The notes under the pieces: model-generated | Told to the model about the DNA's origin: nothing | The model's input: only the letters and a program-made list of their open reading frames with translations | Databases searched by the model: none | Origin: a candidate division Zixibacteria bacterium SM23_81 | GTDB taxonomy: Bacteria; SM23-81 | Length of the DNA: 64,000 bases | Assembly: GCA_001304015.1 (NCBI GenBank) | Contig: LJUY01000007.1 | Span: 1 to 64,000, forward strand | Reading direction: 5' to 3' | Position numbers and translations under genes: made by a program | Shown here: positions 8,447 to 9,401 of the stretch, one piece after another | Position numbering within the stretch: position 1 is the first letter of the stretch | Layout of the letters: each line of letters opens with the position of its first letter

Positions 8447-8469
8447 GTAGGGGCGAGCGGCACTCGCCC
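8447..8469. repeat. REP-like hairpin, GTAGGGGCG class
   Basis: GTAG is followed by GGGCGAG (8451-8457), loop CGGCA, and CTCGCCC (8463-8469). A GTRG tetranucleotide next to a hairpin is the hallmark of REP sequences. The same core recurs at 13813-13831. Confidence 0.6.
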
Positions 8470-8525
8470 AGGGTGGAAGAGAGATGGGGGGGCAGTTGGC
8501 AGGAAAAAACCTGAAATTGGGGATC

Positions 8526-8551
8526 GTAGGGGCGTATCGCGATACGCCCCT
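8526..8551. repeat. REP-like perfect palindrome, GTAGGGGCG class
   Basis: GTAG leads into a perfect 24-bp palindrome (8528-8551) with arms AGGGGCGTATCG and CGATACGCCCCT. The same design, with a different centre, occurs at 49551-49582 inside the second transposase gene. Confidence 0.65.
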
Positions 8552-8572
8552 TTATTATGGAAGAGTGGCTTA

Positions 8573-8618
8573 TGGGAGAGGTCTCCTGACCTCGATCGGA
8601 AATATCAGGAAATCCACC
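8573..8618. repeat. REPIN-like doublet at the 3' side of the RAYT gene
   Basis: The first half has stem GAGGTC (8578-8583), loop TCCT and GACCTC (8588-8593), preceded by TGGGA. The second half (about 8599-8618) is an inverted, decayed copy ending in CCACC. Two REPs facing each other is the REPIN arrangement. It abuts the end of the transposase gene at 8624. Confidence 0.6.
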
Positions 8619-8623
8619 TATCA

Positions 8624-9106
8624 TTACTGTCCGAGATTAAATTTGCTCGTCCAGAATGGATAGTCGAGAGGAGTTGCTACCTGGCCCGCCCGAACCGGAT
8701 TATAGAGACAATACTTTATGATCTCAACAAGGCCTTCATCATCTCGAATCAGATGGTCGCGGAACTGTTCTTGCCATGCAAAGGTGGTTATTTTCAGACA
8801 TTCTTTAATTCTCTTGCCGGTAAAACCTTTCAGGCTTTTCATCACTTCAGAAAGAGTTTTCTTGTCAAGCAGTTGAAATACGATATGTAGATGATCAGGC
8901 ATAACCATGGCAAAATAGCATTCGATATGTTTCTTCTGCTCAAGCCAATCGATAGTATCAAATACAATTTGAACTACCTCTTTTTTCAGGAAGACCTTCT
9001 GTTTGTTGAAACAGGATGTGGTGATGAAGTACACTTCGCCTGCTTGAGAATATCGGTGCTTTCTTAGCTGTCTAGAGCCTCTCACGGGTTTTTTGTATGT
9101 CGGCAT
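8624..9106 (-). CDS. REP-associated tyrosine transposase (RAYT, Y1/HUH)
   Basis: A 160-residue IS200-like single-strand transposase. The HUH metal site is H72-L-H74 within MVMPDHLHIVF. The catalytic tyrosine is probably Y132 in the stretch IIKYCLYNPVRAG. Both are intact, so the gene looks functional. RAYTs bind and cut REP hairpins and are thought to spread them; here REPs flank both ends (8573-8618 and 9102-9123). The ATG (9106-9104) lies in one arm of the upstream REP hairpin and its GGAGG Shine-Dalgarno overlaps the other arm, so the hairpin could block translation. It is a single copy, without the ends of a full insertion sequence. Confidence 0.9.
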   Translation of the reverse strand: MPTYKKPVRGSRQLRKHRYSQAGEVYFITTSCFNKQKVFLKKEVVQIVFDTIDWLEQKKHIECYFAMVMPDHLHIVFQLLDKKTLSEVMKSLKGFTGKRIKECLKITTFAWQEQFRDHLIRDDEGLVEIIKYCLYNPVRAGQVATPLDYPFWTSKFNLGQ

Positions 9107-9123
9107 CAGGAGATGCCTCCCAC
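9102..9123 (-). promoter_or_regulatory. REP hairpin carrying the RAYT ribosome site and start codon
   Basis: Read on the minus strand: GTGGGA, then stem GGCATC (9117-9112), loop TCCT, and stem GATGCC (9107-9102). The start codon ATG is bases 9106-9104 in the second arm. GGAGG (9119-9115) lies at the base of the first arm, nine bases before the ATG. Folding would hide the start codon and part of the Shine-Dalgarno sequence. Confidence 0.75.
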
Positions 9124-9291
9124 AGAAAAAATGGGTGCGGAGTACTCGCCTAATGTGTTACTAGTAATCTCAAGGCATATGTTGAATATCTGAGAATTAA
9201 CCTTTTCTCTTGAAGTTATTAATGGCAGCTGCTATTAATATGAGGTTGTTCTGTGATAATCATACAATAAATGTGCCAGGTAACTATTCTT

Positions 9292-9341
9292 GTGGGAGAG
9301 GTCTGTTGACCTCGAGATCGATATCGGGAGATGTCTCCCAC
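9292..9341. repeat. REPIN (two inverted REPs)
   Basis: Forward REP: GTGGGA, stem GAGGTC (9298-9303), loop TGTT, GACCTC (9308-9313). Inverted REP: GATATC (9320-9325), GGGA, GATGTC (9330-9335), then TCCCAC. The stems differ from those of the RAYT-linked REP but keep pairing, which indicates compensatory change. Confidence 0.75.
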
Positions 9342-9352
9342 AAAGTAACTAT

Positions 9353-9374
9353 GTGGGAGAGGTCTCCAGACCTC
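9353..9374 (+). repeat. single REP
   Basis: GTGGGA followed by GAGGTC (9359-9364), loop TCCA, GACCTC (9369-9374). It lies 11 bases after the REPIN at 9292-9341. Confidence 0.7.
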
Positions 9375-9401
9375 GATTTCCTGTTAAAAGAATGAGGGCG
9401 C

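Follow-up and report, generated by a model that had tools for sequence, protein, structure and literature searches.

A RAYT gene that begins inside the left-end REP hairpin of a compact REPtron in a Zixibacteria draft genome

The window analysed here is a stretch of 64,000 nucleotides (positions 1 to 64,000 of the forward strand of contig LJUY01000007.1, assembly GCA_001304015.1) from the uncultured candidate division Zixibacteria bacterium SM23_81, and our subject is a gene on its minus strand that encodes a REP-associated tyrosine transposase (RAYT) of 160 residues and lies between two repetitive extragenic palindromes (REPs). The gene runs from an ATG at 9106-9104 to the end of the frame at 8624; no in-frame start codon precedes this ATG, which is itself part of the REP on the 5′ side. 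The features concerned are as follows.

8624..9106, minus strand: RAYT gene, 160 aa (NF047646, Pfam Y1_Tnp, PDB 4er8)
9102..9123, minus strand: 5′ left-end, L-type REP, consisting of GTGG, GA and the stem GGCATC/GATGCC with the loop TCCT; holds the RAYT start (sequence and fold)
9104..9106, minus strand: ATG start codon within the 3′ arm of the REP stem (first start in frame; predicted unpaired probability 0.0005)
9116..9120, minus strand: GGAGG, Shine-Dalgarno-like, 9 nt before the ATG (sequence; the spacing matches that of the paralog L002)
8572..8595, plus strand: 3′ right-end, R-type REP, inverted with respect to the first, which closes the REPtron (REP family match)

A preliminary description made from the sequence had called the gene a RAYT, and this was borne out by the database comparisons: the protein scored 120.6 bits against the NCBIfam model NF047646 (cut-off 80), also matched Pfam Y1_Tnp, and was matched by sequence to the structural entry PDB 4er8 (TnpArep, E 1e-6). 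It has an HUH motif (H72-L-H74), both histidines of which are invariant in an alignment (A1) with a relative of 37% identity, as well as a tyrosine before NPV, that of KYCLYNPV (Y132), which is aligned with RYCYMNPV in the same relative. By its position, Y132 is the candidate catalytic tyrosine.

On the minus strand the REP hairpin (GTGGGAGGCATCTCCTGATGCC, 9123-9102) reads, from 5′ to 3′, GTGG (9123-9120), a 5′ arm GGCATC (9117-9112), a loop TCCT (9111-9108) and a 3′ arm GATGCC (9107-9102), with the two arms forming a perfect stem of 6 bp, and the wider context of the start is TTTTTTCT-GTGGGAGGCATCTCCTGATGCC-GACATACAAAAAACCC. RNA folding, computed at 37 °C for RNA alone, gave −8.8 kcal/mol for the stem-loop by itself, and the leader folded better than 199 of 200 dinucleotide shuffles (z −3.3). 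The RAYT AUG had the lowest unpaired probability (0.0005) among 45 predicted gene starts of the window; opening its initiation region was computed to cost 18.9 kcal/mol, which ranked third of the 45, the starts other than that of the RAYT having been called crudely. A stem is thus predicted over the translation start, as in IS200-type hairpins. The preliminary description had placed the beginning of the gene inside the hairpin, with the ATG in the second arm, and its coordinates were right; its further claims, that GGAGG lies at the base of the first arm and that the folded RNA hides both the ribosome site and the start, hold in part. According to the fold prediction the AUG is occluded almost completely, whereas GGAGG spans the base of the 5′ arm with only its last two G's inside the stem; the start codon is thus paired over its full length, while half of the ribosome site is covered. 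An alternative hairpin that pairs GGAG with CTCC and would hide the entire ribosome site was discarded as weaker (−3.7 vs −8.8 kcal/mol). A search of Rfam gave no match.

As an alternative, the real start, or the transcript, could lie elsewhere, either at the GTG of codon 8 (9085-9083), which is in frame, or on a leaderless mRNA beginning from the hairpin or beyond. We regard this as very improbable. The GTG is not preceded by a ribosome site and would leave 6 residues before the conserved LRK motif, where several inspected relatives have 11 and the ATG gives 13, and the paralog described below has the same ATG in its REP, without an equivalent GTG.

The start-site hairpin belongs to a REP family with the consensus GTRGGAG-NNN-TCTCCYGA-NNNC, of which 16 copies occur in the 3.07-Mb genome at up to 3 mismatches (0 for a reversed control pattern), a small number compared with typical REP families. 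The copies are of two arm types, L (GGCATC/GATGCC) and R (e.g., AGGTC/GACCT or GGGTC/GACCC). Behind the RAYT gene, the inverted R copy lies 28 nt past the stop codon and carries ATGG where GTRG is expected. A REPtron consists of a RAYT/tnpAREP gene between inverted REPs (PMC2817692, PMC3733652, PMC8266576), and the locus has this make-up, with inverted tagged REPs on both sides of the gene, together spanning 552 bp, and the same REPs dispersed in the genome. Pairs of L and R without a gene (REPINs) were found on contig C32, in degenerate form at 9291-9343 of the window, and in another genome of the same phylum (G003). Since the RAYT sits between L and an inverted R and these gene-less pairs occur, L and R behave, as judged from the sequences, like the two ends of one element. 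The REP family is spread across the host phylum, and L copies with up to 2 mismatches were restricted to the four genomes of this phylum among the 372 genomes searched. Two further features of the family lie just upstream of the RAYT.

9291..9343, no strand assigned: REPIN, an R-type REP (plus strand, 9292) facing a degenerate L-type REP (minus strand, 9318), some 170 bp ahead of the REP at the RAYT start (REP family match)
9353..9376, plus strand: lone R-type REP (REP family match)

Counting these copies at 9291-9376, five REP copies are packed into about 800 bp. In nearly all copies of the family a GGAG ahead of the stem and a CTCC spanning stem and loop are preserved, and the two are complementary to each other. 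In G003, which represents another family of the phylum, L+R REPINs of about 51 nt and of the same REP family were seen at L166, L174 and L176; no close relative of the window RAYT was found in that genome. The idea that every ATG-bearing REP starts a gene was rejected, as the ATG frames in the examined non-RAYT L copies (from the genome and the phylum) were 6-72 aa long and none was recognised as a gene. From these sequences the ATG is part of the L-end, with or without a gene following it.

A second RAYT in the same genome (L002, on contig C74 of G000) is 58% identical to the first. Its start also sits in its own left-end L REP (GTAGGAGGCATCTCCCGATGCC), with the ATG at the same place and the same GGAGG spacing; an inverted R copy lies behind the gene, and GTAG is found at both ends of the unit. 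Upstream, similarity between the two loci is weak, and the strongly matching block starts at the repeat. Both RAYTs of this genome (2/2) therefore begin inside a REP, and they are the only two instances, from one draft genome of 99 contigs in a phylum represented by four genomes. The C74 copy is frameshifted just before the NPV region (~1820-1890), and the window copy alone looks intact.

Outside this genome the nearest relatives are from Poribacteria, at roughly 30-47% identity. With start codons assigned by rule, a REP lay over the start in 0 of 79 other RAYT leaders (32 unique poribacterial leaders plus 47 further ones). No stem covered the start in any of the 32 poribacterial leaders, 24 of which had a stem within 60 nt upstream, the median gap being 33 nt across all leaders with a stem. 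Among the 47 further leaders, two that had been flagged with a stem over the start were dismissed, L141 as a mis-chosen internal TTG and L054 as an AT-rich hairpin without REP features; in L041, likewise set aside, the start pairs with coding sequence and the REP ends 7 nt upstream. A scan of genome contigs with the window protein alone found no relative with the same layout, and an alignment-based contig scan retrieved 14 Poribacteria RAYT loci; viral contigs yielded no relatives, and matches on plasmids were at most 35% identical. The start-in-REP layout is real, unusual and confined to one lineage. The preliminary description had proposed a comparison of RAYT leaders and had itself named loss of the overlap in relatives as an outcome that would speak against its proposal of autoregulation; outside this lineage that outcome was observed, the overlap that a conserved autoregulatory leader of RAYTs should keep being absent from the 79 leaders, and as a general rule the proposal is not supported.

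How the start came to lie in the REP is suggested by a leader such as L096 (AAAAGGAGAAACCATG), which has a REP of similar GTGGGAGAGGC type, then a spacer, a separate ribosome site and the ATG. Counted by hand, the distance from the end of the REP to the LRK motif is 59 nt in L096, 41 nt in the paralog and 32 nt in the window RAYT, and because of this difference it seems, from few sequences, that shortening of the leader brought the start into the REP. The layout might then be a neutral by-product, in which shortening left no usable start except the one in the terminal REP, and base pairing there would be of no regulatory consequence. The order of elements in relatives, the apparently shortened leader and the presence of the ATG in gene-less REP copies all agree with this. 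Yet a stable stem over a start would be expected to lower initiation whether it was selected or not, and two paralogs with N-termini that are otherwise different both retain the arrangement. We hold a purely neutral origin to be a rather unlikely alternative.

We favour, with a probability of about 0.6, the explanation that in this very compact REPtron the left terminal REP serves at the same time as the ribosome site and start codon of the RAYT, and that the hairpin of this REP represses translation, as in IS200. The left end of the REPtron lies just 17 nt before the ATG, which leaves no room for an internal promoter giving a normal leader, and no sigma-70-like promoter was found on the RAYT strand from the upstream REPIN down to the start. 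Because of this short distance, expression would rely on transcription from outside: a transcript would enter the REPtron, the REP would fold in it at about −9 to −10 kcal/mol, and translation of the RAYT would be low by default since the folded REP would hold the start codon, together with the margin of the ribosome site, in base pairs. The enzyme would probably be kept scarce in this way by the fold of its own messenger. The REP sequence itself may be retained because it is required by the RAYT or for the copying of the REPs, with silencing coming along with its position.

Several observations weigh against this explanation. In relatives the REP, where present, sits upstream of the start, and the ribosome site is then often a separate one. 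The window RAYT and the C74 paralog have the same stem arms, with no compensatory changes and hence no covariation. REPs with the ATG are conserved to the same degree at sites where no gene begins, and REP conservation can be explained by the role of the REP as a DNA substrate; as the sequence is constrained by other things, its conservation is uninformative on translation. In addition, a ribosome might still open a stem of 6 bp, GGAGG being half covered.

The preliminary description had gone further and suggested that the RAYT protein, or the folded RNA, could control RAYT translation; in the protein version, the RAYT would bind the REP hairpin of its own mRNA and block the ribosome. The orientation is suitable, since the mRNA holds the 5′ REP in the sense orientation, with GTRG 5′ of the hairpin, which is the strand that RAYTs bind and process as DNA, and not its inverse (PMC8266576); the 3′ REP is inverted in the same mRNA. 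However, the RAYT work in question describes strand-specific recognition of REPs on single-stranded DNA and does not report RNA binding (PMC8266576), the overlap is absent from the 79 other leaders, and the stem can repress without any protein. Translational autoregulation is therefore improbable in our estimate, and repression by the hairpin, with no feedback from the protein, is the simpler explanation. It is equally doubtful that the left-end REP is a translational operator of its own transposase, RAYT-bound in the mRNA and acting at once as terminal repeat, start site and feedback sensor.

The idea that a hairpin controls a RAYT is not new, as figure legends of PMC3733652 label some flanking sequences “5′ov”, for an overlap with the 5′ end of the transposase gene, and the same paper proposes, citing IS200, that REP hairpins may down-regulate RAYT translation; it calls it unknown whether REPs drive RAYT expression. 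What is added here is a ribosome site and ATG inside the REP, their recurrence in a paralog, the asymmetry of the L and R ends, and the absence of the layout from 79 other leaders. The locus resembles known REPtrons in its NF047646 protein, in the GTRG-tagged inverted REPs on both sides and in the REPINs elsewhere in the genome, and is unlike them in that the REP is documented to hold GGAGG and ATG and that the left and right REPs differ in their arms. With the group 3 TnpAREP/REP system of the Marinomonas REPtron Mb (PMC8266576) it shares a short perfect palindrome (10 nt in Mb vs 12 nt here) that has a 4-nt loop and is set two bases behind the GTRG tetranucleotide, although a start codon in the REP is not described for Mb. 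In IS200, which has a related Y1 transposase, a 5′ stem-loop keeps the tnpA ribosome-binding site sequestered (PMC12594629). The hairpin at the gene start is here likewise predicted to block initiation, but it belongs to a REP family with dispersed copies and contains the start codon itself. The locus bears on the question of how RAYT levels stay low enough for REPs and host to coexist, and offers a small self-contained case in which one stretch of 22 bases is both REP and translation start; DNA recognition and translational masking would therefore be separable by loop and stem mutations.

Two other sequence patterns were seen near REPs or Y1 transposase genes. Just past the 3′ REP, at 8449-8470 and 8528-8551 of the window, lies a second palindrome family (GTAGGGGCG...CGCCCCTAC type), and similar palindromes occur near other Y1 transposase genes (L003, L006, L007). 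A sequence like GCTGTCAGGAGTTACCTCCTGACAGC follows some L-type REPs (L172 and L178 in G003, L165 in G002, and L076), and in L076 it precedes the ATG of another RAYT by 9 nt.
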